Source: an uncultured Bacteroidales bacterium (lineage in GTDB: Bacteria; Bacteroidota; Bacteroidia; Bacteroidales; FEN-979). From it: a stretch of DNA of 37,343 bases. Position 1 is the first letter of the stretch. Each line of letters opens with the position of its first letter. Positions 7,302-34,205 of this stretch are shown here, in pieces. The notes beneath the pieces were generated by a model. The model had not been told where the DNA came from. It saw nothing but the letters and a program-made list of their open reading frames with translations, and searched no databases. The position numbers were made by a program, and so were the translations under genes. The stretch is from NCBI GenBank assembly GCA_903926565.1, contig CAIYJU010000029.1, forward strand, positions 1-37,343, in the 5' to 3' direction.

Positions 7302-7312
7302 TCAAATGAGGA

Positions 7313-7333: not shown

Positions 7334-7335
7334 TT

Positions 7336-9314: not shown

Positions 9315-9328
9315 GAAATTTGAAATTT
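9315..9328. repeat. GAAATTT direct repeat before moeA
   Basis: Two perfect copies of GAAATTT end one base before ATG 9330, in the ribosome-binding position. This is the third case in the cluster of a short tandem repeat set directly against a start codon. Confidence 0.55.
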
Positions 9329-9329
9329 G

Positions 9330-11295: not shown

Positions 11296-11301
11296 CAAAA
11301 T

Positions 11302-11769: not shown

Positions 11770-11821
11770 AAAAAGTTCAAAGTGTAAAATGCAAAGGCAA
11801 AATTCAAAATTAACCCATACA

Positions 11822-11979
11822 CCTCAACCCTCGTGAGGCTGTCTCGCAGGTCATTAACCACAAAGTATCACAAAGTAAGGCACAAAGGACACCAAGCTAA
11901 TATAACTAATATCCAGGCACTTTGTGTCCTTTGTGGTTAAATATAAGACTTATGAGACAACCTCTGCAGGGGATGAGGG
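11822..11979. repeat. MITE-like nested inverted-repeat element
   Basis: The gap between moaC and the MOSC-MogA gene is mostly one symmetric structure. An inner pair, TTAACCACAAAG (11854-11865) and CTTTGTGGTTAA (11929-11940), is perfect over 12 bp and extends with CACAAAG-type units on both arms. Outside it, GAGGCTGTCTC on the left matches GAGACAACCTC on the right with one mismatch in the paired form. Further out, CCTCAACCCTC and GATGAGGG also correspond loosely. There is no ORF inside. I infer a small non-autonomous element or a long hairpin that could act on the transcript. Confidence 0.6.
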
Positions 11980-11997
11980 ATATTAAAACGATTGAAG

Positions 11998-16055: not shown

Positions 16056-16148
16056 TTGATGTAATAATGATGTAATTATTCCGGTACGGTTGCTGCATTA
16101 TTGATGTACAGAAATATATATAAGCCCTGAAATTATACTATACTTTAG
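16056..16148 (+). promoter_or_regulatory. Triple TGATGTA operator and promoter of the glycan operon
   Basis: TGATGTA occurs at 16057-16063, 16068-16074 and 16102-16108, with start-to-start spacings of 11 and 34 bp. A -7-like TACTTTAG is at 16141-16148, 32 bp after the last heptamer; there is no good TTTG -33 box, which fits an activator-dependent promoter. The 55-bp block 16056-16110 matches 27486-27540 without gaps at 45 of 55 positions by my manual count, with the same distance to the -7-like box. The hydrolase gene starts at 16179. Confidence 0.65.
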
Positions 16149-16178
16149 CACCATGATTCCGGCAAGATTGAGCAGAAC

Positions 16179-17588
16179 ATGAAAGAACCCCGCAATACAG
16201 TATACACCAAAAGGCAAATTAAGGCGAAAGGACGCATGCATTGGTTATTGTGCATGATGCTGATGTTACTTTTTATTTCGCAGTTGAACGGACAAACCAA
16301 AATCGTAAACGATGCATCAGGATACAGGCTTTTCAGGAATGGTGCACCCTATTATGTAAAAGGTGTTGGCGGCGAAACATACATGGATCAGGTTACCATC
16401 ATCGGCGGCAATTCTATCCGAACCTGGGGTGTGGAAAATGCCGATAAGGTGCTGAATGAAGCCCAACGAAATGGCCTTACGGTCATGCTTGGCCTGTGGC
16501 TTCAGACTGAACGACAGGGTTTCGATTACAATGATTCGGATAAAGTTCTGAAACAACTGAACCATTTCAAAACAATGGTTAAAAGATACAAGGACCATCC
16601 TGCCCTCCTGTTCTGGGGAATTGGCAATGAACTCGACCTTCAATATTCAAATGTAAAGGTGTGGAGTGCGGTTCAGGATATCGCTAAATACATTCACGAG
16701 ACAGATCCCGACCATCCTACCTCAACTGTTACAGCCGGCTTGGATTCGATGGAGGTCCAGCTGATAAAAAAAATGGCACCTGATGTTGATATTTATTGTG
16801 TTAACACCTATGGTGACATTCAAAATGTTCCCCTGAAAATTGAAAAATATGGATGGAGCGGTCCTTACATGATCACGGAATGGGGCCCGAACGGCTACTG
16901 GGAAGCACCCAAAACCACCTGGGAGGTTTCCATCGAACAAACAAGCACCGAAAAGAAAGCTGTTTACTTTGAACGTTATAAAAAACATATTGAGCCTTTT
17001 AAAACCAAATGCCTGGGTTCTTACGCCTTTTTCTGGGGATCAAAACAGGAATATACTGAAACATGGTTTGGACTCTTTGCCAAAGACGGGGTTGCCACGG
17101 AACCAATAGATGCCCTGGAAATTGCCTTCACCGGCCATAATCCTTTAAAACCAGCTCCCACGATCCTCAGTATGAACATCGCGGATAAAACTGCATCAGA
17201 CACGGTAAAACTGAAAGCAGGTGAAAAATATCCGGCGTCGGTACTCGCAAAAATCGGCCTGAATATGACGGAAACTGCCAATGACACACTGAACAAATTT
17301 GCCTACCGGTGGAGAATACTGGATGAAAGCAATGACAAAAAATCGGGAGGCGATGCCGAAGATGAAGCACAGGAGATACCTGGTTTGATAAGCCAGGGAC
17401 ATCAAAGCCGGATCAGCTTCAGAGCCCCGTCAAAAAAAGGCGCCTACCGGCTGTTCGTCAGTGTATTGTATAATAACAAAGTTGCGTACTCCAACATCCC
17501 ATTCTGGGTGAACGACAGAACCCCGGAGGATGGGCAGGCGAGATTCATAGAATTCAGGAAAACAGACATGAACTCTTTCAATCAATAA
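16179..17588 (+). CDS. Clan GH-A-like TIM-barrel glycoside hydrolase
   Basis: A 469-residue secreted enzyme. A hydrophobic signal segment ends near LNGQ at residue 39; the n-region is long, and Met20 (16236) is an alternative start. The barrel (about 40-325) has GGNSIRTWG, then FWGIGNELD with the likely acid/base Glu151 after Asn150, and YMITEWGPNGYW with the likely nucleophile Glu234, at the spacing seen in retaining clan GH-A enzymes such as the GH2 barrel. A beta-rich domain follows (about 330-465). There is no T9SS tail or lipobox, so it is probably periplasmic. It opens the operon and ends right against the next gene. With GH3 and GH16-like partners, a beta-glucanase or beta-glucan transglycosidase is a fair guess, but I cannot name the family. 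Confidence 0.82.
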   Translation: MKEPRNTVYTKRQIKAKGRMHWLLCMMLMLLFISQLNGQTKIVNDASGYRLFRNGAPYYVKGVGGETYMDQVTIIGGNSIRTWGVENADKVLNEAQRNGLTVMLGLWLQTERQGFDYNDSDKVLKQLNHFKTMVKRYKDHPALLFWGIGNELDLQYSNVKVWSAVQDIAKYIHETDPDHPTSTVTAGLDSMEVQLIKKMAPDVDIYCVNTYGDIQNVPLKIEKYGWSGPYMITEWGPNGYWEAPKTTWEVSIEQTSTEKKAVYFERYKKHIEPFKTKCLGSYAFFWGSKQEYTETWFGLFAKDGVATEPIDALEIAFTGHNPLKPAPTILSMNIADKTASDTVKLKAGEKYPASVLAKIGLNMTETANDTLNKFAYRWRILDESNDKKSGGDAEDEAQEIPGLISQGHQSRISFRAPSKKGAYRLFVSVLYNNKVAYSNIPFWVNDRTPEDGQARFIEFRKTDMNSFNQ

Positions 17589-19472
17589 GTGAAAAAGTCT
17601 TTCAAATATCTACTTCTGCTGAGTTTGATCCTAAATTCAAACTTACGGATGCATGCCCAGGATTCTATTCATAAAATCCTGAAGGATAGTGCCTTTTATG
17701 AAACCAACAAATTTAAAACAGGCAATTTTCCTAAAAAAGCGATGGCAGCTTTGCAGCAGTTCAGCATCAGCGGATATTACAGGTTTGTGACCAATTACCG
17801 TCATCTCGATGTAGCGTATCCACACCTGGAAAACAATAAAAACAACATCTTCGTTGGCGACGACAGCCAAATTCCGGAATTGATGCTGAACATCAGCGGC
17901 AGCGTTATTAAAAACACCTCCTTTGGAACCGACCTCTATATGTGGACCCCAATGACCGGCTTGGGTCAGCCTGAAAACGTAAAGGGATTAAACCTGGGAA
18001 TAAGCCTGTATGGTACTTACTCCAGCCCTTACGGGGAATTTACGGTACGAACAGGAGGCATCAACTGGTATTCACTCACCCCCTTTACTTTTCAAACGAA
18101 TAAAGGATACGACCGATACAGCATCTTTGAACGAAATCCCTGGGATCCGAATACCGCTTCACTGAGCTCCAGGTATGCCACTTTTTACAATTCAGGGGCC
18201 ATCAACCAGGACGAACGGTGGGGACAACAGGCATTCCAGGGAATCATCGTTGAAGGGGCAAACCTTCCCAATGGATTTTCCGGATCGTTCATGTATGGCA
18301 AAACCCAGTTAAACGGGGGCCTTTCCCCCATCCCCAACAGCTCATTCGGAGGGAAAATCAGAAAAGACTACAAATCCAACTATATCAGCATCAACACGTT
18401 TAACAGTACGGGTTACCCCGACTCCCTGGAGCAATTCCGGATGGGGTTCAACATAGCAACAGTTGAATTCAGGAACAATATAAAAAACTTCCAGATCAAA
18501 GGAGAGATCGGTGCAGGAAGGTCTTTTGTTCAGGATAACGTAAGCCTTTGGGGGGAAGCGGTCTCCGTTAAAATATCAACCAATATTGCACATAAATTCC
18601 CGGTTGAAATTCACGTGTACCGCATCAGTCCGAAGGTAATCAATAACAGTGGGGCCTTTATAAACACCTCCGGCCAGGGATATGTCAATCCCAACAAAAA
18701 TGGTCCTCAGCCGGTTTTACCCGCCATTGAAAGCACCATGGTTCCAATCGGACAGCTGACAAACAACAGGCAGGGGATTGACCTGAATACCCAGATCAAC
18801 ATAAGCAGGGTTAAAATCTCCTTTGGTTACAGCACCAGCATGGAGCTGGACAAATTGTCGTCAAAAATAACTTACTGGCATCCAATTAACAGCCTCGTGC
18901 TTGCCCACTTCTGGAGATGGGACTTCCCATCGAATGTTGGTCCGTACAACAACCTGTCGAAAATATACAGGACGGTTTATGAGAAGGTCAACCTGACCGA
19001 TGTTGATCCTGTCAGCCTCAAACCATTTCTGCGCAAATACTTCAACAACATTGAAATAAACGCAAAATACTCCGGAAAGCTATTCAACAGGGACTACTAC
19101 ATATACTACCTCGGACAATACAGTTCAGCGCAGAACTATCTTGCCCCCATCACGGTATTCACTGAGAAAGCCCTTCTCAGGACCTATTATCACCAGCTGG
19201 AATTTTATTACACCGTCAGCCCTTCAGTGATCTGGGCAAACTATTTTGGCTTCGAACGAATCATCGCAAACTATGGCACCGAGACTGACAAGATTTCAAG
19301 AAGGCCCAAAAATCAAACCGGGTATAGTGTTGCTACAGGTTTTGATGTGCGTTTGAGCAAAGGTGCCGCCCTTTACCTGCGCCAGCGCTGGGTAAATTAT
19401 CATGATTCAAGCTTTGCAAACGACAAATACAGTGGATTTGAAACTACGGTGGAAATTAAAATATTCTTTTAA
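17589..19472 (+). CDS. Outer-membrane beta-barrel protein, first of two
   Basis: A 627-residue protein starting with GTG directly after the hydrolase stop codon. A signal peptide (about 1-24, ending MHAQ) is followed by alternating hydrophobic and polar strands with many aromatic residues and ends in Phe-Phe, the outer-membrane barrel C-terminal signature. There is no plug domain, carboxypeptidase-like domain or TonB-type motif, so it is not SusC. I do not recognise the family. Its length would allow a barrel of 16 or more strands. It shares a one-base overlap with the next barrel gene. In this operon it may be a porin or anchor for oligosaccharide passage, which would replace the missing SusC; that is inference. 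Confidence 0.72.
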   Translation: MKKSFKYLLLLSLILNSNLRMHAQDSIHKILKDSAFYETNKFKTGNFPKKAMAALQQFSISGYYRFVTNYRHLDVAYPHLENNKNNIFVGDDSQIPELMLNISGSVIKNTSFGTDLYMWTPMTGLGQPENVKGLNLGISLYGTYSSPYGEFTVRTGGINWYSLTPFTFQTNKGYDRYSIFERNPWDPNTASLSSRYATFYNSGAINQDERWGQQAFQGIIVEGANLPNGFSGSFMYGKTQLNGGLSPIPNSSFGGKIRKDYKSNYISINTFNSTGYPDSLEQFRMGFNIATVEFRNNIKNFQIKGEIGAGRSFVQDNVSLWGEAVSVKISTNIAHKFPVEIHVYRISPKVINNSGAFINTSGQGYVNPNKNGPQPVLPAIESTMVPIGQLTNNRQGIDLNTQINISRVKISFGYSTSMELDKLSSKITYWHPINSLVLAHFWRWDFPSNVGPYNNLSKIYRTVYEKVNLTDVDPVSLKPFLRKYFNNIEINAKYSGKLFNRDYYIYYLGQYSSAQNYLAPITVFTEKALLRTYYHQLEFYYTVSPSVIWANYFGFERIIANYGTETDKISRRPKNQTGYSVATGFDVRLSKGAALYLRQRWVNYHDSSFANDKYSGFETTVEIKIFF

Positions 19473-21178
19473 TGAAAAAACTTAAACTGCCGATTTACAT
19501 TATACTCCTCATATTAGGTGCAACGGGCCTGCATGCCCAGCAAAAACGCACCATCAATATTATTGGAGGTGCCCGATCCTTTATTTCAACAAACCAGATT
19601 AAGGTGATGGACAGCATTCCGGATACGACCACTGTTAAAAAAAACAACGGAGGGTATGCACTGATTGACCTCGGTGTCGATATCACACCCAATAAAAGCG
19701 TTGAAATCCTGGGAATGTTCAGGATTAAAAATTACTATGGCGGATTCTGGGGATCAGGCGTCAGTTTTGATGTGCGCCAGTTGTGGCTCAAAGGTATTGT
19801 CGGAAATGTGTTCAGGTACCAGCTGGGTGATCTGAATCTTAAACAAACCCCGTTTACGCTATACAACCATCATGCAGACAGAATTGATTCATTACCGGAT
19901 GTCTTCAACCTTCAAAATCAAATAATTTCATACGAAAAATTCTATATCGGCAATACATGGCGCCAGCAGGGGGCCAATATTGATTTCGGATTAAATTTTT
20001 CAAAGGTTTTAAAGGAGCTAAATTTCACAGGATACCTCACGAGAATGCAGGCCACGAATTTTTTCACAGTGCCCGACAGGCTGATGGGCGGAGCAACTGT
20101 AAATGTTGTCCAGGGCAGGCACATCAGTTTCGGCTACAACGGCTTCTGGGCTTTCGATGTAAAAGGGACGGCACCCGACAGCAACACCTATCATAATTCA
20201 GTGAATACCATAGAACTAGAATATACCACCAACTTGAAAAACATCGGTTTTGAGGTTAAAGCGGAAGCCGGCACCAGCAAATCGGTATATTCTCAGGATG
20301 TTGATGCTTCCCTGCTCAAAGATTATTTCATACATGGCTACGCCACCATCAGGTTACCAAAACAGTACCTGGATTTTACGCTGGGCTATCTGAATGTTGG
20401 TCCTGATTTCAGGAGTATCGGGGCGCAAAGTAAAGACATCAACTATTCAGCCGCCCCTGAATATTACAACCGGTACACCAATGCCCAGATTCCCAGGCCC
20501 CTCAGTGTTTTTGATGTGGTCAGGAATGAGAACATCTACAACACCTCTGTGACCAGCACGCTGATGGCAACCAATCCGGTGTATAACAATGTTTTACCTT
20601 ATGGCATTGCCACATTCAACACACAGGGCATTCTGGCGAAAATCAATTATAAATTCCCGAAGGGGATCGCAGTCAATGCTGAACAATATTTCCTTTCTGA
20701 AATCAGGGGCCAGGGAACCAACAGCTTGAAGAAATTTTCCCAGACAAAACTTCTCGCACAAATTGAGATTAACAAGCTGGCAAACTTCTCGAGGGAATTG
20801 AAAATTCAGATTGGCGCCAACTATCAGATTACCAGCAGAAAAAGCGACGTTACTGTCGAAGAGGTTGATCTTAAATCCCTGCAATTCCAGGCTGGAGTGG
20901 AATTTGAATTTATCAAAAAAATCGATCTCCTTCTTGGCATCGTTGGCTTATCAAACAAAGGGAATGATTTTCTCCCGGTACGAAATTCCTACTCGAAAAT
21001 TGAATATTTTAACAGTGCCAATTATGATTTAAGCCAATATTTATCGGCAGCTGGTATTCGTGTCAGATTTTTAAGTGACCGTATCTATCTCTGCGCCCTT
21101 TACCAGAGAAGTACCTATACGGATAAGATCAACGTTAATCCGGATTATCAACTCGACCAGTTTTGCGCTTATTTTTAA
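19472..21178 (+). CDS. Outer-membrane beta-barrel protein, second of two
   Basis: A 568-residue protein with signal peptide (MKKLKLPIYIILLILGATG to HAQ, about 1-23) followed by strand-rich sequence with typical barrel patterns (e.g. SVEILGMFRIKNYYGGFWG, YIGNTWRQQGANIDFGLNF) and a C-terminal Phe. It differs in sequence from the barrel encoded just before it and has no plug domain. The TAATG overlap with the upstream gene points to translational coupling, so the two barrels are probably made in fixed ratio. I do not recognise a named family. A role as a channel, or as an adhesin holding the hydrolases and lipoproteins at the surface, would both fit. Confidence 0.7.
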   Translation: MKKLKLPIYIILLILGATGLHAQQKRTINIIGGARSFISTNQIKVMDSIPDTTTVKKNNGGYALIDLGVDITPNKSVEILGMFRIKNYYGGFWGSGVSFDVRQLWLKGIVGNVFRYQLGDLNLKQTPFTLYNHHADRIDSLPDVFNLQNQIISYEKFYIGNTWRQQGANIDFGLNFSKVLKELNFTGYLTRMQATNFFTVPDRLMGGATVNVVQGRHISFGYNGFWAFDVKGTAPDSNTYHNSVNTIELEYTTNLKNIGFEVKAEAGTSKSVYSQDVDASLLKDYFIHGYATIRLPKQYLDFTLGYLNVGPDFRSIGAQSKDINYSAAPEYYNRYTNAQIPRPLSVFDVVRNENIYNTSVTSTLMATNPVYNNVLPYGIATFNTQGILAKINYKFPKGIAVNAEQYFLSEIRGQGTNSLKKFSQTKLLAQIEINKLANFSRELKIQIGANYQITSRKSDVTVEEVDLKSLQFQAGVEFEFIKKIDLLLGIVGLSNKGNDFLPVRNSYSKIEYFNSANYDLSQYLSAAGIRVRFLSDRIYLCALYQRSTYTDKINVNPDYQLDQFCAYF

Positions 21179-21193
21179 CATGACATTTTAGCG

Positions 21194-22192
21194 ATGAAAA
21201 AAATATTCTATATAGCACTGGCCCTCATCAGTTTGTGGTCCTGCAGAAAAGAGACCGTCACCTTTGATGGTCCGAGCATCAAGGAGATGTACAGTAATTT
21301 TTCCATGCTCGAAAATTTCAAGTCCAGCAAAGACAGTGTCTCCTTTGCAAATGGAGAATACATCCTGTTTACTGCAAAATTTAACAAGATGGTCAACTGG
21401 AAAATAACGGTTACCGGACAAACATCACACGCAAAGAAGGAGATTACCGGGCTCACCAATGCAATTGACGGATCCAACGGGCTCTGGGATGGTTCCACAA
21501 CCTATTTTCCCATGTTCAAAGCAGAGAACTGCCGGGCGGAATTAACGATCGAAGGGGTGCCCGACACATTCATCGTCACAACAAAAATAAAATCCGTAAA
21601 AGTCAATACCGGGCTTGTTATCGCTGATTTTGAAAACGGGTTCAACCCGCTCTGGACCAAGTTTATTCAGTCGGGAGCCAACATGGATTTTAAAATAAAA
21701 ACTGACACACTTGCCCCGCAGGGGGATGATTACCTGAATATGGCGGGCACTGTGGATTGGGACTGGCTCATTGGATTAATTGATTACCCGGCAGCTGCGT
21801 ATGGCTCGGGAAAAACGATGCCGCTACCAACAAACCCTGGGAATGTCTATTTTAATTGCCTGATCTATGGCGTGCCGAATACCAATGAATCCCATGTGTT
21901 GTTTCAATTTAAAGAAGATGAAAACGCTGATGGCACGATCACTGCAAGCAGCGACGATCAATATGATTTAGAAGTAATCGTGAATTGGGTCGGATGGAAA
22001 CTTGTTACTGTAAAATATGCCGATCTGCCTTGTCTGAACAATGGCCAGCCAGTCACCCCAAATGGGAACGGCCAGCATAATCCCGACAAAATCGGTAAAA
22101 TATCCATGCTGCACCTGGCCGATCCCAAAAACGGTTTTGCCAGTTGTAAAATTGATTATCTGATCTTTACTGATACGCCACTAAAACCCTGA
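21194..22192 (+). CDS. Putative surface glycan-binding lipoprotein
   Basis: A 332-residue lipoprotein: a short hydrophobic signal then LISLWSC with the lipidated Cys at 17. An N-terminal Ig-like part (about 20-130) is followed by a jelly-roll-like domain that opens with VIADFENGFNPLW and closes with CKIDYLIFTD. This layout recalls the CIA30/CBM11-like beta-sandwich domains that bind glycans. It has no catalytic motif I can see. It sits 15 bp after the second barrel gene and overlaps the next lipoprotein gene by one base. I infer that the two lipoproteins do the work usually done by SusD and surface glycan-binding proteins. Confidence 0.72.
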   Translation: MKKIFYIALALISLWSCRKETVTFDGPSIKEMYSNFSMLENFKSSKDSVSFANGEYILFTAKFNKMVNWKITVTGQTSHAKKEITGLTNAIDGSNGLWDGSTTYFPMFKAENCRAELTIEGVPDTFIVTTKIKSVKVNTGLVIADFENGFNPLWTKFIQSGANMDFKIKTDTLAPQGDDYLNMAGTVDWDWLIGLIDYPAAAYGSGKTMPLPTNPGNVYFNCLIYGVPNTNESHVLFQFKEDENADGTITASSDDQYDLEVIVNWVGWKLVTVKYADLPCLNNGQPVTPNGNGQHNPDKIGKISMLHLADPKNGFASCKIDYLIFTDTPLKP

Positions 22193-22848
22193 TGAAAATC
22201 AACGTTCTATATGTATTTCTGTTAGCCGGCCTGTTCGGATGCGCACCGGGCAAACCTTCTTTTGTCAAGGTACAGACTAAAGAGCTGTATGATATCAATA
22301 CTGTGGAAAGAATTCCTTCCGTCAATGGATTCACTGCACTGGATATCTTTACTGAAACCATGGATAACACGGTTTGGGCATCACCCGAGAAGAACTGCCT
22401 GGCCCTGTCAAAAGATAACGAACATGCTTTTATGGGCAAAAATTCCCTGCATGTCAAATGGGATAAAGTAACCGGCGGATGTAAATGGATTGGAATCGGA
22501 TTTGGCTGGAATGCATGGCAACCGAAGGACATGATCGACATTGTGAATGATGCTGCCGTGGAGATGAAGGTGAAGGCTGCAAAAGGCGGTTTTTCGAACT
22601 TACCGGTGGCATTCGCATTTGAAGACTATACGGGAACTCAATCCTATTGCGGGTTCAGTACCAAACTGGCCTCGGGTCGGTTTAACGACAGTACCTGGAC
22701 CACCGTGACCATCCCTCTGAAAAATTTCCCGTTTCAGCTGAATGATGCCGATTTAGGCAAAATGAAACAATTTATTATTCAACTTGAAGGAGATGGGGAC
22801 ATATACCTTGATGAAATAAAAATAATCAGTTATAGTGATGAGAAATAG
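22192..22848 (+). CDS. Small CBM-like lipoprotein
   Basis: A 218-residue lipoprotein: LLAGLFGC with Cys17 as the lipidation site, a short linker, then one beta-sandwich domain. The domain has the course of CIA30/CBM11-type modules: AFMGKNSLHVKWDKVTGGC, WTTVTIPLKNFPF, then a final IYLDEIKII strand. A C-terminal jelly-roll domain of the same style is seen in the preceding lipoprotein, so the pair may bind different parts of the same glycan. It overlaps both neighbours (TGATG junction upstream, 11 bp with the GH3 gene downstream), which indicates coupled translation. Confidence 0.72.
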   Translation: MKINVLYVFLLAGLFGCAPGKPSFVKVQTKELYDINTVERIPSVNGFTALDIFTETMDNTVWASPEKNCLALSKDNEHAFMGKNSLHVKWDKVTGGCKWIGIGFGWNAWQPKDMIDIVNDAAVEMKVKAAKGGFSNLPVAFAFEDYTGTQSYCGFSTKLASGRFNDSTWTTVTIPLKNFPFQLNDADLGKMKQFIIQLEGDGDIYLDEIKIISYSDEK

Positions 22849-25084
22849 CATCCTTCTTTTCCTGTTGATCACATCCTGTTTGTTTGGTAATGCACAAACC
22901 AGGCCTGATGTCTTTATCGATTCATTGATAAGAATCATGACTGTCGAAGAAAAGGTCGGACAGATGTCACAAATTGACCTGGGGGTGATAGCCACAGGGG
23001 AACCATGCAAATTGAAGAATCCCCAGGAAATTGACCTTGAAAAACTGCATCTTGCCATTACAAAATACAAGATCGGATCAGTGCTGAATGTCGGATGCGG
23101 CAGCGGGACAATCTCAATTGAAAACTGGCATAAGATCATTGGTTTGATCCAAAAGGAAAACACCGCGCTTTCCAGGCTTAACATTCCGATCATCTATGGC
23201 ATCGACGCTGTTCACGGGGTAAACTACACCATGGGTGGCACCCTGTTTCCCCAGCAAATCGGCCAGGCAGCCACCTGGAATCCTGACCTTGTCGAGCAGA
23301 TTAATGCAATAACAGCTTATGAAACCAGGGCAAGTGCCATTCCATGGAATTTCTCCCCTGTGCTGGATCTTGGCAGGCAGCCATTGTGGTCGCGCTTCTC
23401 TGAAACCTACGGGGAAGATGTTTTTCTGGCCAAAGCAATGACAAAGTCAGCAATTACCGGGATGCAGGGAGAAGACATAGGCAGTCCGTTCAAAGTTGCC
23501 GCCTGCATGAAACACTTCCTTGGTTACAGTATGCCTTTAAGTGGAAAAGACAGATCTCCTGCCTGGATCGCAGAAAGGGAATTAAGAGAGTATTTTCTGC
23601 CGACTTTCCAGCAAGCCATTATTTCCGGCGCAAAAACAGTGATGATAAATTCCGGTGAGATCAATGGAACACCTGTTCATGCAAATTATGACATCCTTAC
23701 CAAATTACTTCGCAATGAATTGGGATTTAAAGGAGTCGCCATAACGGACTGGGAAGACATTTATAAACTGACAGACCTGCACCGGGTTGCCTCCAACAGG
23801 AAAGAGGCCGTTAAAATGGCGATCATGGCGGGTATCGACATGAGCATGACACCCAATGACCTTGTATTCAATGATTTACTTATAGAATTAGTTAAAGAAG
23901 GCGCAGTGCCAATGAACCGGATTGATCAGGCTGTATCAAGAATATTGACCCTTAAGAAAGAGCTGGGCCTGTTCAATAAAACACAATATCCAATTGCAAC
24001 CTATCCTGAGTTTGGTTCAAAACAACATGCAGAAATCAGCTATAAGGCCGCATGTGAATCACTTACGTTATTAAAAAACAACAACAAGGCTTTGCCGATT
24101 GAAAACAAAAAAGAAAAGATCTTTGTTTGCGGCCCGGCAGCCAATTCACTGAATTTTTTAAACGGATCATGGACACATACATGGCAGGGTATTGATACAA
24201 CCTGTAATACCAAAAACAAGCTGACAATCTTACAGGCATTACAAATAAATTTTGGCAAAGAACATATTACCTTCCTGCCAGGCTGTTCCACAGATAGTTT
24301 GATTGATCTTGCATCCTGCCTGGAACTGGCGAAAAAAGCAGACAAGATCATCTTATGCCTGGGAGAAAAACCCGGTACCGAGTTACCAGGGAACATCGAT
24401 GATCTGTCACTATCCCCGGCACAGGTAAAACTGGCAGCAGCCCTGTCGTCGCTGCATAAGCCCGTAATTTTAGTCTGCAGTTTCGGCAGGCCCAGAATTA
24501 TCCGCGATGTGGTGAAGGGTGCTGAGGCCGTTTTATATGCCTATTTACCCGGTGATGAAGGTGGAAGAGCGATTGCCGATTGTATTTCAGGGATCGTAAA
24601 CCCAAGCGGCAAACTGCCATTCACCTATCCCGGGGCAGTTAATGAACTCGTACATTACGACCACAAAACCATGGAGGAACTGGCCACCGATTTTTCGATG
24701 AACGGCTACAATCCTGAATTCGATTTCGGGTATGGCCTTTCTTTTACCAGCTTTACCTATTCACCCATGAAGATAAATAAGGCCACCATCACCGGCAGTG
24801 AATCGATTGAGGTTTCGGTGACCGTTACCAACAATGGAACCAGGACGGGAAAAGAGGTTGTCCAGCTGTATTACCAGGATTTGTTTGCTTCCATCACGCC
24901 ATCCGTAAAAAAACTGACAGAATTCCGAAAAATAGAATTAATGCCTCATGAATCGAAACAGGTTACCTTTGTTTTAACCGCGGAAAACTTCTCCTTTATC
25001 GGGAAAGACTGTCAGCGGATAACAGAACCGGGAGAGATCGAGTTACAATTGTCCAATCAGAAAAAACTCATTTATGTCAGGTAA
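22838..25084 (+). CDS. Glycoside hydrolase family 3 beta-glucosidase
   Basis: 748 residues from ATG 22838. The N-terminal GH3 barrel shows MTVEEKVGQMSQ, IPIIYGIDAVHGV, WNFSPVLDLGRQPLWSRFSE, the KHF motif of FKVAACMKHFLGY, and GVAITDWEDI with the catalytic Asp304. The alpha/beta sandwich domain (about 400-600) and a fibronectin-III-like domain (about 655-745) complete the BglX-type layout. It should release glucose from beta-linked oligosaccharides. The signal sequence (LLITSCLFGNAQ) allows either cleavage after AQ or lipidation at Cys14, so location is periplasm or a membrane face. It overlaps both the lipoprotein gene before it and the GH16-like gene after it by 11 bp. Confidence 0.94.
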   Translation: MRNSILLFLLITSCLFGNAQTRPDVFIDSLIRIMTVEEKVGQMSQIDLGVIATGEPCKLKNPQEIDLEKLHLAITKYKIGSVLNVGCGSGTISIENWHKIIGLIQKENTALSRLNIPIIYGIDAVHGVNYTMGGTLFPQQIGQAATWNPDLVEQINAITAYETRASAIPWNFSPVLDLGRQPLWSRFSETYGEDVFLAKAMTKSAITGMQGEDIGSPFKVAACMKHFLGYSMPLSGKDRSPAWIAERELREYFLPTFQQAIISGAKTVMINSGEINGTPVHANYDILTKLLRNELGFKGVAITDWEDIYKLTDLHRVASNRKEAVKMAIMAGIDMSMTPNDLVFNDLLIELVKEGAVPMNRIDQAVSRILTLKKELGLFNKTQYPIATYPEFGSKQHAEISYKAACESLTLLKNNNKALPIENKKEKIFVCGPAANSLNFLNGSWTHTWQGIDTTCNTKNKLTILQALQINFGKEHITFLPGCSTDSLIDLASCLELAKKADKIILCLGEKPGTELPGNIDDLSLSPAQVKLAAALSSLHKPVILVCSFGRPRIIRDVVKGAEAVLYAYLPGDEGGRAIADCISGIVNPSGKLPFTYPGAVNELVHYDHKTMEELATDFSMNGYNPEFDFGYGLSFTSFTYSPMKINKATITGSESIEVSVTVTNNGTRTGKEVVQLYYQDLFASITPSVKKLTEFRKIELMPHESKQVTFVLTAENFSFIGKDCQRITEPGEIELQLSNQKKLIYVR

Positions 25085-25910
25085 AGCTATTCTTCCGGGT
25101 ATTTCCATTCTGATCTCCCTGTTTTTTTATTCATGCAAACAATCTGATCCCATTCCGCCTGAAGAAACCAAAGGAGACCTCTATTTCTCAGGGTATTACT
25201 GGAATTTCAAAAACAGCAATGAAACACTGGCCGGACCTGGTCCAAACTTTTTCGCCAGTGACTCAACCAATATCTGGCTGGATGGTGACAACCAGCTCCA
25301 TCTGAAAATCACAAAAACAAATAACCGTTGGTATTGCAGTGAACTGATCTCCACCAGGGTTTTTGGCTACGGGACCTATATTTTCACCACTTCCAGCGAT
25401 CTGACAACCCTGAACGAGAAAATTATCTTCGGTTTATTTACCTGGGATGATCATTCATTTCAAACCCAGGCCAACAGTGAAGTCGATATTGAATTTTCAA
25501 GGTGGAATGTGGCGAATGATTCGCTGCTGCTTACAACCAGCGTCCAGCCAGTGTGGTTTGACAATGCCGCTCCCTATCCTGAACGAACCAGAAAACCCAA
25601 AATGCAGGCAAGTATGCTGAAACACACCTGCACCAGCATGTTCAAATGGACACCCGACCTTATCACCTGGGAAACTTATGAAGGCAGCGACTATCCCGGA
25701 ACAAACAAACTTGCAAGCTGGTCATTTGATAAATCCAATTTGCCGAGAACAAAAACCGAAGGCGGCAGAACCTCCGACCCGATTGTGATTCCTGCGCCTT
25801 CCGACAGCACAAACGTACGCTTTAACCTGTGGCTTTTGAACGGCCAGGCGCCTTCTGACAACAAGGAACCAGAGGTTGTTATTAAGTCATTCAGATTTAT
25901 TCCCCTCTAA
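25074..25910 (+). CDS. GH16-like beta-glucanase lipoprotein
   Basis: A 278-residue lipoprotein with ISLFFYSC (Cys21 lipidated). The concanavalin-like fold is indicated by WLDGDNQLHLKIT, RVFGYGTYIF and LFGLFTWDDHSF-like strands, and the catalytic ExDxE motif is present as SEVDIEFSRW (Glu136, Asp138, Glu140). Family 16 enzymes cut beta-1,3, beta-1,3/1,4 or related glucans and galactans. The context with GH3 and many glucan-type binding modules points to a beta-glucan. It is compact, with no attached binding module; binding seems to be delegated to separate proteins in the locus. The start overlaps the GH3 gene by 11 bp. Confidence 0.82.
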   Translation: MSGKAILPGISILISLFFYSCKQSDPIPPEETKGDLYFSGYYWNFKNSNETLAGPGPNFFASDSTNIWLDGDNQLHLKITKTNNRWYCSELISTRVFGYGTYIFTTSSDLTTLNEKIIFGLFTWDDHSFQTQANSEVDIEFSRWNVANDSLLLTTSVQPVWFDNAAPYPERTRKPKMQASMLKHTCTSMFKWTPDLITWETYEGSDYPGTNKLASWSFDKSNLPRTKTEGGRTSDPIVIPAPSDSTNVRFNLWLLNGQAPSDNKEPEVVIKSFRFIPL

Positions 25911-25946
25911 TTATTATCGTCACTTATTAATGTCAATACAATACCC

Positions 25947-27248
25947 ATGAAAAAAATACTACTTTCTCTTATTTTAACAGCGATGGCCACCTCCTTCAGT
26001 GTGGCCCAGAATAAAAATGTAACATTTCAGGTCCATTCCCCTGATTCAATTCCTGTATATGTATTCGGAAGCTGGAGCAACTGGCTTGTCTGGCCCGGCG
26101 ACCGCATGAATTCCGTCGGAGATGGCTATTATGCAGTTACACTCTCCCTGCCGGTAAGCACAACGTATGAATTCCTGTTTGTAAACGGCATATCACCTGT
26201 TAAAGAAATATTGGACCCGGCGTGGCCTTGCACCAATGGGAATGGTGAATATACAAACCGGGTGTTGTCAATGAAAACAAATGATACGACGATATGTTAT
26301 GACTGGAAATCGTGCAACACCTGCACGGCGCCTGCCAACAATGTCGCGGTAACATTTACTGTCCATAACCCCGATTCCATCCCTGTTTATGTGTTTGGCA
26401 GCTGGAGCAACTGGCTGGTATGGCCCGGCGATCAGATGACCTCCATTGGCAATGGCGATTATGCTGTAACCTTAACCCTGCCGTCAAACACCAACTATGA
26501 ATATCTTTTTGTAAACGGGACAGTTCCGGTCAAAGAGGTGCTTAATCCTGCATGGTCATGTACCAACGGGAATGTACAATACACCAACAGGGTGCTGGCA
26601 TTGGGCAGCACAAACACCTCCCTTTGTTTCAAATGGGATTCCTGTGTCTCCTGCACAGGACAAAGCGACGGGATAATGGTTAAATTCCAGGTGCTCAATC
26701 CAGATTCGGTGCCGGTGTATGTTTTTGGAGGATGGAGCAACTGGGGAAACTGGCCGGGCACCCCGATGACATCGGTTGGTAACAATCTGTATGAAACAAC
26801 CATTCAATTGAAGTCGAACCAGACAATTGAATACCTGTTTGTAAACGGTGTCGGACCGACAAAAGAAGCGCTGGATCCTTCCTGGGCCTGCACCAACGGC
26901 AATGCGCAATACACCAATCGGATATCAACGCTTGGCAGCAGCGACACAACCATTTGTTTTAAATGGGGTGTTTGCCAGACATGCGGATCTTCTGCCGTGA
27001 ATTCCATTTCAAAAGATGAGATGAAAGTACAGCTGACCAGGGATGGCGTTCGTGTTTTTTCTACTACGGTGGCCTACATTGACCAAATTGAAGTTTATGA
27101 TTTGCTGGGCAATAAAGTCTATCATTCAGCCGGAAAAATAAAAATGAATGGCCTGGTTCCCATGGCCCTTCACGGGAATGCAGTTTATCTTATAAAAATA
27201 TCTGCAAACAATCAGAGATTCACCTTTAAAGGATTGCTGACGAATTGA
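25947..27248 (+). CDS. T9SS-exported protein with three WSNW-type carbohydrate-binding modules
   Basis: A 433-residue protein: signal peptide (to about 20, SVAQ), three tandem modules of about 105 residues (about 22-128, 131-236, 239-345) and a type A T9SS sorting domain (about 358-433, ending FKGLLTN). Each module has VYVFGSWSNW or GGWSNWGNW, a PGDxMxS turn, YEFLFVNG, then an AWxCTNGN and a C-terminal Cys pair (CxxC). The aromatic WSNW turn resembles starch-binding E-set (CBM20/CBM48-type) modules common on Bacteroidota surface proteins. No catalytic domain is present. It is the last gene of the operon and is followed by a strong terminator. Homologous modules occur in the two large proteins of the next unit. 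Confidence 0.85.
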   Translation: MKKILLSLILTAMATSFSVAQNKNVTFQVHSPDSIPVYVFGSWSNWLVWPGDRMNSVGDGYYAVTLSLPVSTTYEFLFVNGISPVKEILDPAWPCTNGNGEYTNRVLSMKTNDTTICYDWKSCNTCTAPANNVAVTFTVHNPDSIPVYVFGSWSNWLVWPGDQMTSIGNGDYAVTLTLPSNTNYEYLFVNGTVPVKEVLNPAWSCTNGNVQYTNRVLALGSTNTSLCFKWDSCVSCTGQSDGIMVKFQVLNPDSVPVYVFGGWSNWGNWPGTPMTSVGNNLYETTIQLKSNQTIEYLFVNGVGPTKEALDPSWACTNGNAQYTNRISTLGSSDTTICFKWGVCQTCGSSAVNSISKDEMKVQLTRDGVRVFSTTVAYIDQIEVYDLLGNKVYHSAGKIKMNGLVPMALHGNAVYLIKISANNQRFTFKGLLTN

Positions 27249-27272
27249 TAATCCTGTAAAAAATGCCCGAAG

Positions 27273-27317
27273 AGGCTGTACTAAAAGGATGCAATTCATT
27301 TTATTACAGCCTTTTTT
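27273..27317 (+). terminator. Intrinsic terminator ending the glycan operon
   Basis: AGGCTGTACTAAAA (27273-27286) pairs with TTTTATTACAGCCT (27299-27312) with one mismatch across a 12-base loop, followed by a run of six T ending at 27317. It lies 24 bp after the stop codon of the three-module protein and separates that operon from the promoter block at 27486. Confidence 0.88.
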
Positions 27318-27684
27318 ATTTTCACTCTCCCGTTTTTTTAAAACAACGGTTTCAGACCCTCTCCTGCTCCTCATTTTCACCTGTTAACGATTCGATTCAT
27401 GTGTATAGACTGATGTGTTAAAGCAAGCTGAGATATTTACATATATGCCTACATATCAGGTATTTGCATATTTCACAACCTTGGCTTGATGTATTAATGA
27501 TGTAATTAATAAAGTGATGTTGCTGAATTTTTGATGTACAAATATGTTTTTAAAAACTTGCATTACAATATAAATTAGCGGCCTCAAACGTCCATGATAT
27601 TTCACAAGGAAAAAATTCTATCAACATAACAACAATTCCGATGATCCTGACAATTACCGTAAATTAACCTCAAAACAATTTATC
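27318..27684. other. Gap without a gene between two glycan units
   Basis: I see no coding sequence here. It holds the promoter-operator block at 27486-27578 and about 100 bp of AT-rich leader before the next gene. The stretch 27400-27470 has further TGATGTG and TACATAT-like words that may or may not be extra sites. Confidence 0.6.
27486..27578 (+). promoter_or_regulatory. Triple TGATGTA operator and promoter of the second glycan unit
   Basis: TGATGTA occurs at 27487-27493, 27498-27504 and 27532-27538, with the same 11- and 34-bp spacings as the block at 16056. The -7-like TAAATTAG at 27571-27578 again lies 32 bp after the last heptamer. GTTGCTG between the second and third heptamer is also shared. 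An extra near-match, TGATGTT, lies at 27515-27521. The coding sequence begins at 27685, so the leader is about 100 bases. Confidence 0.65.
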
Positions 27685-30654
27685 ATGAAAAAACAATTCC
27701 TTTCTGCAATTTTCAGCATGATGCTTTCAGTGATTTGTTATGCTCAAACACCTTTGGATTTACCGGTGACTTTTGATGATGCCACCGTGAACTATGCGTT
27801 GACCGATTTTGGCGGGAACATCAGCAGTATTGTAAGTGATCCGACAGTTCCGACAAATATGGCCTGCAAAATCATTAAAAGCAGCACTGCAGAATTGTGG
27901 GCTGGAACCACCTTAGGAGGAGCCGTTGGTTTTGCAACACCTGTGCCGTTTGCAGCCGGTTCTACTACGATAACCATGAGAGTTTATTCACCGGATGCAG
28001 GTATCATTGTCAAGATGAAGGTAGAAGATGCAACGGATCCGACCAAATCCGTGGAAACAAATGTGTTGACAACCACAGCCGGCACATGGGAAACACTCAC
28101 ATTCGATTTTGCCAACCAGGCCCCGGGAACGGCTGCGATTAATTTCAGCTATACCTACAATAAAATGTCGGTGTTTTTCAACTTTGGAACTCCCGGATCT
28201 CTTGCAGGAGAAAAAACATACTATTGCGATGATATTTATTTTGTCTATTCCGGTCCAACCCCGCTAAACCTTCCGGTAACTTTCAACAATAATAATGTCA
28301 ATTATGATCTTGTTGATTTTGGCGGCAATGCCAGCAGCATTGTTTTTGACCTGGTGGTTCCAACCAATAAGGTATGCCAGGTTATCAAATCAAATGTTGC
28401 CGAACTTTGGGCAGGAACAACGCTCGGGGGAACATCCGGTGGATTTGCCACTGCGATTCCTTTTGCAGCAGGTGCAACCTCATTGACCATGCGGGTTTAT
28501 TCACCGGATGCCGGGATCCCGATCCGTCTGAAAGTAGAAGACCCTGCCAATCCAGACGTCATATGTGAAACGGAAGCATTAACAACCGTAGTAAATACAT
28601 GGGAAACCCTGACGTTCAATTTTGCCAATCAGGTTGCCGGGACTCCCCCACTAAATCTCAGCAACACGTATAAAAAATTATCGGTATTCTTCAATTTTGG
28701 CACAACCGGTGCAGTTGCAGGAACCAAAACATACTTTTTTGATGATGTCGCCTTTGTGCCTGCAGTTGTTCCCGTAATTGACCTTCCCGTTACTTTCGAC
28801 AACCCGGCCATCAACTACGGGCTGGTTGATTTTGGCGGTAATGCAAGCAGCATCGTAGCTGACCTGGTCGTTCCATCAAACATGGTCCTGCAGGTTATCA
28901 AATCAAACACTGCCGTGCTTTGGGCCGGTACGACGCTTGGAGGGTCAATCGGATTTGCCACGGCAGTGCCATTTGCCTTGGGTTCAACCACGATTACGAT
29001 GCGGGTTTATTCACCCGATGCAGGCACCCCTGTCAGGATGAAAGTAGAAGATCCAATCATTGGTGCCGTCGCCGTTGAAACGGAAGCGATGACAACTCTG
29101 GTCAACGCATGGGAAACACTTACATTTAATTTCGCCAACCCTGCACCAGGAAGCACTCCTATTAATTTTAGCAACACCTATAAAAAAATGTCGCTGTTTT
29201 TCAACTTCGGCACCACCGGGGCCGTTGCAGGTACAAAAACATATTATTGCGATGATATTATTTTCGGCGGTGGCGGGCCCGTACTGCTCAACCTGCCTGT
29301 AACATTCGAAAACAGCAATGTTAACTACGACCTGGTTGATTTCAGCGGTAACACCAGCAGCATCGTCAATGACCTCGTGGTTCCGTCCAATAAAGTATGC
29401 AAGGTGATCAAATCGGATGTTGCCGACCCCTGGGCCGGTACAACCATTGGCGGATCAACCGGTGGATTTGCTTCTCCGATCCCGTTTGCACTGGATTATA
29501 CCAGGATCATCATGCGCGTGTATTCTCCCGATGCCGGCATTCCTGTCCGCATGAAAGTAGAAGATCCGGCCAATCCGGGGATTTACGTGGAGACGGAAGC
29601 AGTGACAACCGTAGCCAATACATGGGAAACGCTCACATTCAATTTCGCCAGCCAGGTACCCGAAACTCCTGCGCTAAATCTCAGCAACACCTATAAAAAG
29701 CTGACAGTATTTTTCAATTTTGGAACACCAGGTGCAGTAGCCGGAACCAAAACCTACTATTTTGACGATGTTGCATTTGGCCCTTATGTTCCGACGATGA
29801 TACAGGTTACCTTCCAGGTTCAGAATCCCCCCTCCACCCCTGTGTATGTATTTGGGGGCTGGTCCAACTGGGGCAATTATCCGGGAACCGAGATGACCTC
29901 TGCCGGAGGTGGTTTTTATACAGTAACCCTTCCTCTGGCAGCAAGTTCCTCCCATGAATTTCTTTTCGTCAGCGGCAGTACGCCCGTCAATGAAGTGCTG
30001 GATCCTTCATGGCTGTGCACGAACCAAAATGCCCAATACACGAACCGGGAAGTCACCCTTGATCGCACTGACGTCACCATATGTTATAACTGGAGTTCCT
30101 GCAACTCCTGCATCATTCCTGTAGTGCCTGTTAACAGGGACCTACAGAATATAACTGTTGCTGCCGAAGAGGGAGCTTGCTACGATGCGACCCAAACAGT
30201 CACCATTGCCGGCAACAACAGCTTTTTCACCGTAGCTGCCGGGGGTGCCGCAGACGTTGTTGCAGGGCAGAACATTCTGATCCTGCCGGGTATGACCATC
30301 AGTGAAGGTGGATATTTCCATGGGTATATCTCGATAAACCAGCAGTTCTGTGCCATACCTGCTGTGAAATCTGTTGAAATCCCGCAGAAAAACATACTGA
30401 ACACCGACGTTTTAGACCTGAGAATTTTTCCGAATCCGGCATCTTCCAGTGTGATGCTTGATCTTACCGGTGTGGCTGATGGCGCTCAGACCAAACTTGA
30501 AATGATCGGGATCAGGGGTGAGTCGATTCGTACCGAAGTGTTTTCCGGCAGCGGAAAACATCCGATTCCGCTAACCGGCCTGACAACCGGCGTTTATGTA
30601 TTCCGGGTAATTTGCGGAGACCAGGTTGTTACAAAAATGTTGCTGAAAAACTAA
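27685..30654 (+). CDS. Large T9SS-exported protein with four jelly-roll CBMs and one WSNW module
   Basis: A 989-residue protein without a catalytic domain. Signal peptide (about 1-20); four tandem modules of about 170 residues (about 22-190, 192-360, 362-530, 532-700), each opening with LPVTFDD/FNN, then VDFGGNASSIV, ELWAGTTLGG, MRVYSPDAGIPVRMKVEDP, WETLTFNFANQ, and closing with TKTYYFDDVAF; one WSNW-type module (about 705-808); a short beta-solenoid-like segment (about 815-895, QNITVAAEEGACYDATQTVT onward); and a T9SS sorting domain (about 908-989). The repeated module resembles the binding domains attached to secreted family 16 laminarinases in Flavobacteriia, so beta-glucan is the likely ligand. 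Multivalency suggests strong capture of insoluble or long chains at the surface. Confidence 0.86.
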   Translation: MKKQFLSAIFSMMLSVICYAQTPLDLPVTFDDATVNYALTDFGGNISSIVSDPTVPTNMACKIIKSSTAELWAGTTLGGAVGFATPVPFAAGSTTITMRVYSPDAGIIVKMKVEDATDPTKSVETNVLTTTAGTWETLTFDFANQAPGTAAINFSYTYNKMSVFFNFGTPGSLAGEKTYYCDDIYFVYSGPTPLNLPVTFNNNNVNYDLVDFGGNASSIVFDLVVPTNKVCQVIKSNVAELWAGTTLGGTSGGFATAIPFAAGATSLTMRVYSPDAGIPIRLKVEDPANPDVICETEALTTVVNTWETLTFNFANQVAGTPPLNLSNTYKKLSVFFNFGTTGAVAGTKTYFFDDVAFVPAVVPVIDLPVTFDNPAINYGLVDFGGNASSIVADLVVPSNMVLQVIKSNTAVLWAGTTLGGSIGFATAVPFALGSTTITMRVYSPDAGTPVRMKVEDPIIGAVAVETEAMTTLVNAWETLTFNFANPAPGSTPINFSNTYKKMSLFFNFGTTGAVAGTKTYYCDDIIFGGGGPVLLNLPVTFENSNVNYDLVDFSGNTSSIVNDLVVPSNKVCKVIKSDVADPWAGTTIGGSTGGFASPIPFALDYTRIIMRVYSPDAGIPVRMKVEDPANPGIYVETEAVTTVANTWETLTFNFASQVPETPALNLSNTYKKLTVFFNFGTPGAVAGTKTYYFDDVAFGPYVPTMIQVTFQVQNPPSTPVYVFGGWSNWGNYPGTEMTSAGGGFYTVTLPLAASSSHEFLFVSGSTPVNEVLDPSWLCTNQNAQYTNREVTLDRTDVTICYNWSSCNSCIIPVVPVNRDLQNITVAAEEGACYDATQTVTIAGNNSFFTVAAGGAADVVAGQNILILPGMTISEGGYFHGYISINQQFCAIPAVKSVEIPQKNILNTDVLDLRIFPNPASSSVMLDLTGVADGAQTKLEMIGIRGESIRTEVFSGSGKHPIPLTGLTTGVYVFRVICGDQVVTKMLLKN

Positions 30655-30713
30655 CAGCATCGCGTGCCTTTCATGACCAATCAATAGTAGAAACTGTTCA
30701 AAAAATCAAAGCA

Positions 30714-32447: not shown

Positions 32448-32474
32448 CAAACAGAAGGATAATACTGACAAACC

Positions 32475-34205
32475 ATGGATACAGGTTTTACCCTCAGCTG
32501 GATTGACTATGCCATCATGATCGTGTATTTCGTTTTTGTGCTCGGCATCGGCTGGGCACTTAAACGGCACATGAAGACCGCCAATGCATTTCTGGAAGCA
32601 GGCAGGGCGATGCCGGCCTGGGTGGCGGGACTGGCCTTTATCTCAACCAATCTCGGGGCGCTTGAGGTGATGGGAATGACGGGATCGGGGGCCAAATACG
32701 GCATGTTAACCACTCATTTTTACTGGATCGGGGCCATTCCTGCCATGGTTTTCCTGGCCCTGTTCATGATGCCATTTTATTATGGATCAAAAGCGAGATC
32801 TGTACCGGAATACCTGAAACTGAGGTTTGATGAAAAAACCCGCGGTTTGAATGCGATTCTTTTTGCGGTCATGACCATCCTGGCTTCAGGAATATCGATG
32901 TACGCACTGGCGATTCTCATGGAACGGGTTCTGGAATGGAATTTTCACCTGAGCCTGGTATTATCTGCTGCCATTGTGCTTGGATACACTTACCTTGGCG
33001 GGCTTTCTTCAGCAATTTACAATGAGGTTCTTCAATTCTTCATCATCGTTTTTGGTTTGCTCCCCATTGTCATCCTGTGCCTGATGGACCTTGGCGGATG
33101 GTCGGGAATGAAAGAGCAGTTAGCCCCCATCGTGTCGGCAAAAGGGTTTGCCCCCGATACCTGGACCACCACCTGGAAATATACAGGTACCGCTTCGGCC
33201 AATCCGATGGGTGTGGAGTGGTATGGCATCTTTGCCGGACTCGGTTTTGTGCTATCCTTCGGGTACTGGTGTACCAACTTCCTCATTGTTCAGCGCGCCA
33301 TGTCGGCGGAATCTCCCACAGCGGCGAGAAACACCCCGTTAATCGGGGCTCTGCCAAAGATGTTCATTCCTTTCCTGATCATTGTGCCGGGAATAGCTGC
33401 ACTTGTATTGCTGAACAAACAGGGTTCCGGTTTTACCCTGCCGGAAATTGCCCCGGGCCAGTATAATTATGACTATACCATCATCGCCCTGCTGAAACAG
33501 TACCTTCCGGCAGGGGTACTCGGACTGGGCATTACGGCACTGCTGGCCTCCTTTATGTCGGGAATGGCGGGAAATGTTTCCGCCTTCAACACTGTATGGA
33601 CGTATGACATATACCAGAGCTACATACGACCGGTCACGGGCAATAAAGATGCCGACGACCGGCATTATCTCACGGTGGGGCGGATGGCCACTGTTTTCGG
33701 GGTGGTGGTGAGCATTGCCGCTGCCTACCTTGCGAGTCTCTTTGGCAACATCATGGATTTTCTGCAAACAATTTTCTCCATGATCAATGCGCCTTTGTTC
33801 GCCGTGATCTTCCTTGGAATGTTCTGGAAGCGAACCACCGGGCATGGGGCATTCATCGGCCTGCTCTCCGGCTTTTTTGTCGCATTGCTGCACCATGGAC
33901 TAACTTCACCGCTGGGGGCAGCCACCCTCGTAAAAGGAGGCTGGATCTACCATGCGTATGTTTATCCCGTTGAGATGGCACAAAACTTCTGGACCGCAAT
34001 CTTTGCCTTCACGACTGCTTCGATTGTTACGGTTGCTCTTTCCATGATCACCAAACAGCTGAAAACTGACGACGACCTGAAAGGTCTTGTCTATTCGCTT
34101 ACGCCAAAATTCAGGGAGGAACATGTGCGGTGGTATTACAGATCCTCCACCCTTGCAATCTTTGTACTGGCCATTGCAGGTTTGCTTACAATTTTATTCT
34201 GGTAA
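32475..34205 (+). CDS. Sodium/solute symporter (SSS family, SGLT-like)
   Basis: A 576-residue inner-membrane protein with about 14 hydrophobic segments, the expected size for the family. Visible family features include AGLAFISTNLGALEVMGMTGSGAKYG near the N-terminus in separate helices, KARSVPEYLKLRFD, TYLGGLSSAIYNEVLQFF, and the ASFMSGMAGNVSAFNTVWTYD helix that contains the conserved Ser/Asn region linked to Na+ binding. The SGLT branch couples Na+ entry to sugar uptake. Next to a glucan-degrading locus, glucose or a short glucoside is the likely cargo. The gene follows the T9SS protein gene by 27 bp and is followed by a small membrane protein gene. Confidence 0.92.
   Translation: MDTGFTLSWIDYAIMIVYFVFVLGIGWALKRHMKTANAFLEAGRAMPAWVAGLAFISTNLGALEVMGMTGSGAKYGMLTTHFYWIGAIPAMVFLALFMMPFYYGSKARSVPEYLKLRFDEKTRGLNAILFAVMTILASGISMYALAILMERVLEWNFHLSLVLSAAIVLGYTYLGGLSSAIYNEVLQFFIIVFGLLPIVILCLMDLGGWSGMKEQLAPIVSAKGFAPDTWTTTWKYTGTASANPMGVEWYGIFAGLGFVLSFGYWCTNFLIVQRAMSAESPTAARNTPLIGALPKMFIPFLIIVPGIAALVLLNKQGSGFTLPEIAPGQYNYDYTIIALLKQYLPAGVLGLGITALLASFMSGMAGNVSAFNTVWTYDIYQSYIRPVTGNKDADDRHYLTVGRMATVFGVVVSIAAAYLASLFGNIMDFLQTIFSMINAPLFAVIFLGMFWKRTTGHGAFIGLLSGFFVALLHHGLTSPLGAATLVKGGWIYHAYVYPVEMAQNFWTAIFAFTTASIVTVALSMITKQLKTDDDLKGLVYSLTPKFREEHVRWYYRSSTLAIFVLAIAGLLTILFW

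Follow-up and report, generated by a model that had tools for sequence, protein, structure and literature searches.

A conserved paired-heptamer operator and its candidate LuxR-type membrane regulator in a predicted beta-1,3-glucan gene cluster of an uncultured Bacteroidales bacterium

A 37,343-nucleotide stretch of an uncultured Bacteroidales bacterium (GTDB lineage FEN-979; contig CAIYJU010000029.1, assembly GCA_903926565.1), hereafter called the window at its full length, carries the same 55-bp block at two promoters. We propose that this block serves as an activator operator for REG, the regulator gene immediately upstream of its first copy, and that REG controls the use of beta-1,3-glucan through it. 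Judged from sequence comparison, this reading is very probable; that the block is a real, conserved operator with a candidate reader is well supported.

A four-heptamer operator at two promoters

The two copies, site a (16056-16110) and site b (27486-27540), are identical at 45 of 55 positions in an ungapped alignment. Each holds TGATGTA three times, in steps of 11 and 34 bp (Table 1), and each is followed by a -7 box 32 bp past the last heptamer. On all of these points our recount agrees with the original prediction, which was made from the letters of the window alone. The triple pattern matches twice in the window, a number that none of 100 dinucleotide shuffles reaches. Where the prediction saw a three-heptamer operator with a common GTTGCTG, however, we find four heptamers: GTTGCTG hides a degenerate one, TGCTGCA in site a and TGCTGAA in site b, 11 bp 5' of the last, and the unit is therefore two pairs set 34 bp apart. 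The operator reads [TGATGTA-N4-TGATGTA]-N16-[TGCTGCA-N4-TGATGTA], with heptamers at 0, 11, 34 and 45, and then the -7 box.

The prediction would have been refuted had the block been a dispersed repeat at unrelated genes. Throughout the window's own assembly (4.69 Mb, 210 contigs, 93.84% complete), both the triple pattern and the 55-bp consensus with up to 3 mismatches find sites a and b only, and the block is therefore no dispersed repeat there. Even the single pair TGATGTA-N4-TGATGTA, with 1 mismatch allowed, occurs just four times, and two of these are the first pairs of the blocks.

Conservation of the operator among relatives

Relatives of the bacterium carry the same arrangement. When 20-35 bp were allowed between heptamer 2 and the last heptamer, 61 related genomes yielded 8 sites in 7 genomes; all seven within-family sites have 27 bp at this point, and the one out-of-family site (G046) has 24 bp and is without TGCTG. 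With up to 3 mismatches tolerated, 11 of 43 family genomes carry sites, 17 in all, and the control had no hits. A scan of the GTDB collection, excluding the window's own genome, returned 16 stretches, all from metagenome-assembled genomes (MAGs) that bear the labels Bacteroidales, Bacteroidetes or Draconibacterium; L048 was new, the other 15 already known. The 17 sites of the family search and L048 make up the 18-site set used below.

Heptamers 1, 2 and 4 are near-invariant over the 18 sites, and the spacers are divergent except at alignment positions 8, 41 and 44, where T is invariant. The last heptamer is TGATGCA in nine sites, TGATGTA in eight and AGATGTA in one, and heptamer 3 is TG[CT]TGNA in 17/18 and AGGTGCA in the remaining site. 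It is conceivable that blocks with 45/55 identity inside one cluster are recent duplicates or mobile repeats devoid of function. This is exceedingly improbable, given that the assembly has two copies only, that the heptamers are kept while the spacers diverge, and that the pattern recurs independently in other families.

The promoter elements keep their place as well. The box TAnnTTnG is present with a 5/5 match in all 18 sites, at a gap of 32 bp (13 sites) or 33 bp (5 sites) from heptamer 4. The Bacteroidota primary-sigma consensus at -7 is TAnnTTTG, as given in PMC7366714; sites a and b have the T-A variant (TTAG). Around -33, the alignment shows T at position 60 in 18/18 sites and at position 62 in 17/18, a T-rich region with no clear TTTG, and site a has only TATATATA there. 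Where the prediction missed a good -33 TTTG box, we see a T-rich element, and for this reason we describe the -33 element as degenerate rather than absent.

Heptamers placed upstream of a weak -33 element are the usual arrangement for activation. A repressor-bound or dual block, at which REG would shut the promoter in the absence of ligand, is quite unlikely: we infer the direction of regulation, which leaves room for such a scheme, but the heptamers precede the -33/-7 region without overlapping it, and the -33 element is weak.

REG, the candidate reader

The Reg_prop, Y_Y_Y and GerE domains of REG all score over the Pfam cut-off (GerE 26.8 bits versus 23.5), and a signal peptide and a single transmembrane helix are likely, as judged by eye from its translation. 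A model of the C-terminal 200 amino acids (aa; predicted local distance difference test, pLDDT, 90.7) has a helix at 2-91. Foldseek matches of this C-terminus include VraR, LiaR, ComA and NarL domains at TMt ~0.7-0.83, with E no better than 0.077. The periplasmic part resembles the hybrid two-component system (HTCS) sensors 4a2l and 3v9f; a Pfam search found no histidine kinase, receiver or AraC helix-turn-helix (HTH) in REG, which thus does not have the make-up of an HTCS. The NCBIfam SusR family NF058541 is absent from its matches at E 0.01, and a SusR-like assignment of REG and its paralogs, to which NCBIfam lends no support, was dropped.

Sites and REG occur together. Of the 43 family genomes, 11 have sites, and 10 of these carry a REG ortholog (52-100% identity; G000, G001, G003, G008, G015, G016, G025, G029, G035 and G062); the 32 genomes lacking sites carry none (Fisher P 5.7e-9, uncorrected for kinship). 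REG lies directly upstream of 10 of the 18 sites, at 108-224 bp in nine cases and 644 bp in one. Seven of the remaining eight sites are in genomes that hold REG elsewhere, which fits action of REG in trans. Two of the orthologs are incomplete as assembled: that of G003 is interrupted (L030:6551-9441; two frames, with one internal stop reported, real or an assembly error), and that of G008 is split over two contigs.

In its own assembly, REG is the sole full-length protein of its kind found, next to 15 other matches to its C-terminal part and 2 to its Y_Y_Y part. One of these C-terminal matches, a TPR-LuxR protein encoded at 34569, stands within the cluster and has a C-terminal HTH 33% identical to that of REG. 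Its reading the operator, alone or with REG, is very unlikely: its matches beside sites in relatives are the C-termini of REG orthologs, no separate TPR protein being present in the loci examined, and the assembly has 14 other C-terminal paralogs against only two operators. On these two grounds we rejected it as the reader. It also has a weak match to the NCBIfam SusR family, far below the cut-off. Of the idea that a phased operator at two glycan promoters is served by coiled-coil regulators on both flanks, we therefore retain the operator and the regulator at 13031 and give up the second regulator.

Heptamer pairs beside REG homologs of other families

We collected 71 full-length REG homologs, comprising 11 paralogs within the bacterium's own family (L093-L103) and 60 proteins of further families in the order (L136-L195). 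By likeness, 25 are nearer to REG (REG-like) and 46 nearer to the paralog L096 (PAR). At least 60 bp of downstream sequence was available for 68 (22 REG-like and 46 PAR regions; 57 from other families), and the 18 sites lie outside this set. These downstream regions add up to 19,646 bp, and 26 of them contain exact TGNNGTA-N4-TGNNGTA pairs, 30 in total, all on the strand of the regulator. Elsewhere in these loci, 567,505 bp searched on both strands yield 2 exact pairs, and 64 regions upstream of the regulators have none. A count that is blind to the heptamer likewise peaks at lag 11, with identical 7-mers in 16 regions, followed by 7 at lags 43 and 32.

Exact pairs are present in 12/22 REG-like and 14/46 PAR regions, and heptamer type tracks the REG paralog. 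TGATGTA appears twice in 10/14 REG-like pairs versus 1/16 PAR pairs, and TGAAGTA-TGACGTA makes up 6/16 PAR pairs. The HTH residue before RYR is S in 24/25 REG-like proteins and R in 11/11 same-family paralogs.

The spacing of the larger unit was examined in the 38 regions with a first pair at 9/10 matches. Second pairs lie at 43 (10 regions), 44 (5), 33 (3) and 34 bp (2), relative to a shuffle expectation of 0.13 per distance, and once each at 22, 32 and 53 bp. When only the score decides where the second pair is seated, a -7 box falls at gap 32 in 9/13 REG-like regions with a pair (background 1.75% per offset, P 1e-13) and in 9/24 PAR regions with a pair (background 4.45%, P 5e-7). In L182 and L190, which the script missed, a 5/5 box stands at 32 when the second pair is seated by eye at 33 and 32, respectively; L180 has a 3/5 box at 32 and one of at least 4/5 at 33.

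Exact pairs were also sought across whole genomes. Eleven of 14 REG-like genomes have a hit, partly by construction because they were chosen for a pair or near pair at the locus; their 2 off-locus hits are one in coding sequence and one before a sigma-factor-like gene. Of 21 genomes picked as lacking REG-like genes, one has a hit, in coding sequence. The reversed-pattern control gave one hit (G310).

Several further observations concern single loci. The paralogs L093-L103, which sit beside SusC/SusD-type genes, have their own variant 3', most often TGAAGTA-N4-TGACGTA, which a second pair follows at a distance of 43-44 bp. By eye, G286 shows two groups of four heptamers each, phased at 11 bp, and a SusC-like gene follows one of them. 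L183, the one region examined from two Bacteroides genomes found via a 16S primer, has no pair at 9/10 matches.

These distributions bear on one more alternative, namely that a different regulator of like site geometry, for example an OmpR/PhoB-type response regulator, reads the operator and REG is a mere neighbor. All 18 sites have the 7-bp direct repeats with 4-bp spacer of an OmpR/PhoB-type operator, the layout described in PMC4832192 for the winged-helix OmpR/PhoB-family protein PhoP, which also binds three or four motifs in a row. Against this, sites and REG co-occur, heptamer pairs are concentrated downstream of REG homologs and scarce in the remainder of their loci, and heptamer type follows the REG paralog; we regard the alternative as unlikely.

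Genes behind the sites

The genes that follow sites a and b (Table 1) include GH16, GH158 and GH3 enzymes, the set that marks a beta-1,3-glucan utilization locus. No SusC/SusD was found by Pfam among the genes of 16179-34205. According to PMC7157763, beta-1,3-glucan loci of gut Bacteroides combine GH16, GH158 and GH3 with an HTCS regulator and SusC/SusD; the window has the same enzyme set, with proposed REG control instead and no SusC/SusD found in the interval above.

First genes after the 18 sites encode CBM-repeat proteins (8), beta-1,3-oligosaccharide phosphorylases (5), GH158 (2), SusC (2) and GH81 (1). Homologs of the CBM-repeat gene at site b follow sites in 7 relatives, and the sites of two relatives precede SusC/SusD. 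The phosphorylase assignment comes from L028:9654-13151, which matches a solved beta-1,3-oligosaccharide phosphorylase (PDB 6hq6, E 0); the five first genes of this type are identical to it or 71-90% alike. The ~1160-aa proteins behind some sites had been candidates for SusC, and the one examined proved to be this phosphorylase. A search of the window's assembly found no such phosphorylase. Several of the 18 sites have GH17, GH30 and sugar transporters nearby. In G029_C120 and L048, REG and CBM-repeat genes are all that was recognized beside the site, and the substrate there is therefore assigned by analogy.

Table 1. Coordinates of the operator elements, the candidate regulator and the assigned genes in the window.
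Feature	Position	Strand	Basis
Site a heptamer 1, TGATGTA	16057..16063	+	sequence, 18-site alignment
Site a heptamer 2, TGATGTA	16068..16074	+	sequence, 18-site alignment
Site a heptamer 3, degenerate, TGCTGCA	16091..16097	+	sequence, 18-site alignment
Site a heptamer 4, TGATGTA	16102..16108	+	sequence, 18-site alignment
Site a -7 box, TACTTTAG	16141..16148	+	32-bp gap from heptamer 4
Site b heptamer 1, TGATGTA	27487..27493	+	sequence, 18-site alignment
Site b heptamer 2, TGATGTA	27498..27504	+	sequence, 18-site alignment
Site b heptamer 3, degenerate, TGCTGAA	27521..27527	+	sequence, 18-site alignment
Site b heptamer 4, TGATGTA	27532..27538	+	sequence, 18-site alignment
Site b -7 box, TAAATTAG	27571..27578	+	32-bp gap from heptamer 4
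REG, likely transmembrane one-component regulator, proposed binder	13031..15925	+	Reg_prop, Y_Y_Y, long helix, LuxR/GerE-type HTH
GH158-like endo-beta-1,3-glucanase, first gene after site a	16179..17588	+	PDB 9oro (GH158) E 3e-88
GH3 enzyme, operon after site a	22835..25084	+	Pfam GH3 N and C domains
GH16-like beta-glucanase	25074..25910	+	PDB 1byh E 9e-6; NCBIfam beta-glucanase E 2.5e-5, below cut-off
CBM-repeat protein with type IX secretion system (T9SS)-type tail, first gene after site b	27685..30654	+	Pfam CBM_35_2 over cut-off; Por_Secre_tail 25.5 bits, cut-off 27
Sodium:solute symporter behind CBM-repeat genes	32475..34205	+	Pfam SSF E 8e-51

Other parts of the window are noted here for completeness. 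For two genes of the site-a operon (17589-21178; 627 and 568 aa), neither Pfam nor NCBIfam gives a match. Three adjacent genes at 25947-32447 are built of common long repeats (119-300 bp, 60-79% identity) that are CBM-like. The region 434-12930 encodes a LysR-type HTH protein, a solute-binding protein, a TonB-dependent receptor and molybdenum-cofactor (Moco) proteins, and is probably a separate molybdate/Moco cluster. The stretch 36667-37341 covers the beginning of a C10-family peptidase that carries a Spi-type inhibitor domain and is cut by the contig end.

Comparison with described operators

The geometry is of the known 7+4+7 kind, and the two-pair layout with a LuxR-type reader would be a new variant of it. 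Sites of the OmpR/PhoB family are alike in their 7-bp motifs, 4-bp spacer and direct repetition. They are read by a winged-helix response regulator, whereas the candidate here is a one-component protein of the membrane whose HTH is of LuxR/NarL type, and the window operator has two pairs separated by 16 bp.

NarL/LuxR-type operators are read by the same HTH class as that of REG. NarL heptamers begin with TAC, as does TACNNCA, the reverse complement of TGNNGTA. Classical NarL and LuxR sites are inverted repeats; the window-type operator, in contrast, consists of direct repeats, and no opposite-strand pair occurs downstream of the 68 REG homologs.

Glycan-utilization promoters of Bacteroidales are also known to carry direct repeats. 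Using comparative genomics, Ravcheev 2013 (PMC3878776) predicts direct-repeat motifs at Bacteroides glycan promoters, with centers 67/77 bp apart for SusR-like regulators and 21 bp for HTCS. These comprise two sites each, compared to four heptamers at 0, 11, 34 and 45 in the window operator. In the open-license literature, we found no description of the four-heptamer layout, nothing relevant among the papers listed for the bare heptamer, and nothing on Y_Y_Y/LuxR regulators.

Proposed mechanism and implications

Several observations weigh against assigning the operator to REG and against a uniform layout. G006 has a site and no REG ortholog in its assembly; G025 has REG without a site in the surrounding 19 kb, both of its sites being on other contigs; the genomes are mostly MAGs; and those of the family are related, so that counts over them are not independent. 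Beyond the family, 42/68 downstream regions have no exact pair, 10 of them among the 22 REG-like regions. Some second pairs are off phase, at 58 (2 regions), 28, 39, 40, 47, 51 and 73 bp (1 each). Second pairs are poor (4-5/8) in L169, L171 and L174, the gap-32 hit of L174 resting on a doubtful pair, and L173 and L190 were mis-seated by the script.

With these points taken into account, we propose the following model for REG as activator. REG would sense a beta-1,3-glucan oligosaccharide via its periplasmic propeller/Y_Y_Y part, and the signal may travel along its single membrane-spanning helix and then a coiled coil to the LuxR/NarL-type HTH. One HTH would occupy each heptamer, two standing head-to-tail at 11 bp, or one helical turn, apart, and the spacing of 34 bp suggests that the two pairs seat four HTHs on roughly one face of the DNA. 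The proximal pair, 32-33 bp before the -7 box, could then support RNA polymerase where the promoter's own -33 element is weak. In this way REG would switch on the GH158/GH3/GH16 operon behind site a and the CBM-repeat/symporter operon behind site b together.

More broadly, we think it on balance probable that membrane-tethered LuxR/NarL-type sensors, a widespread class in Bacteroidales, use a common grammar: TGNNGTA head-to-tail pairs one turn apart, a second pair about 2-5 turns off (22, 32-34, 43-44 or 53 bp), the proximal pair 32 bp before the -7 box, and a central dinucleotide that separates paralogs. If this holds, a LuxR-type HTH has taken up PhoB geometry, and the operators of hundreds of uncharacterized glycan regulators would be predictable from sequence. 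An uncharacterized regulator class would thereby be linked to a predicted DNA code, and its regulons, including genes far from the regulator, could be found by sequence search. The structural question that follows is how membrane-tethered LuxR-type HTHs bind head-to-tail direct repeats. Finally, the use of beta-1,3-glucan by uncultured lake Bacteroidales would become testable.

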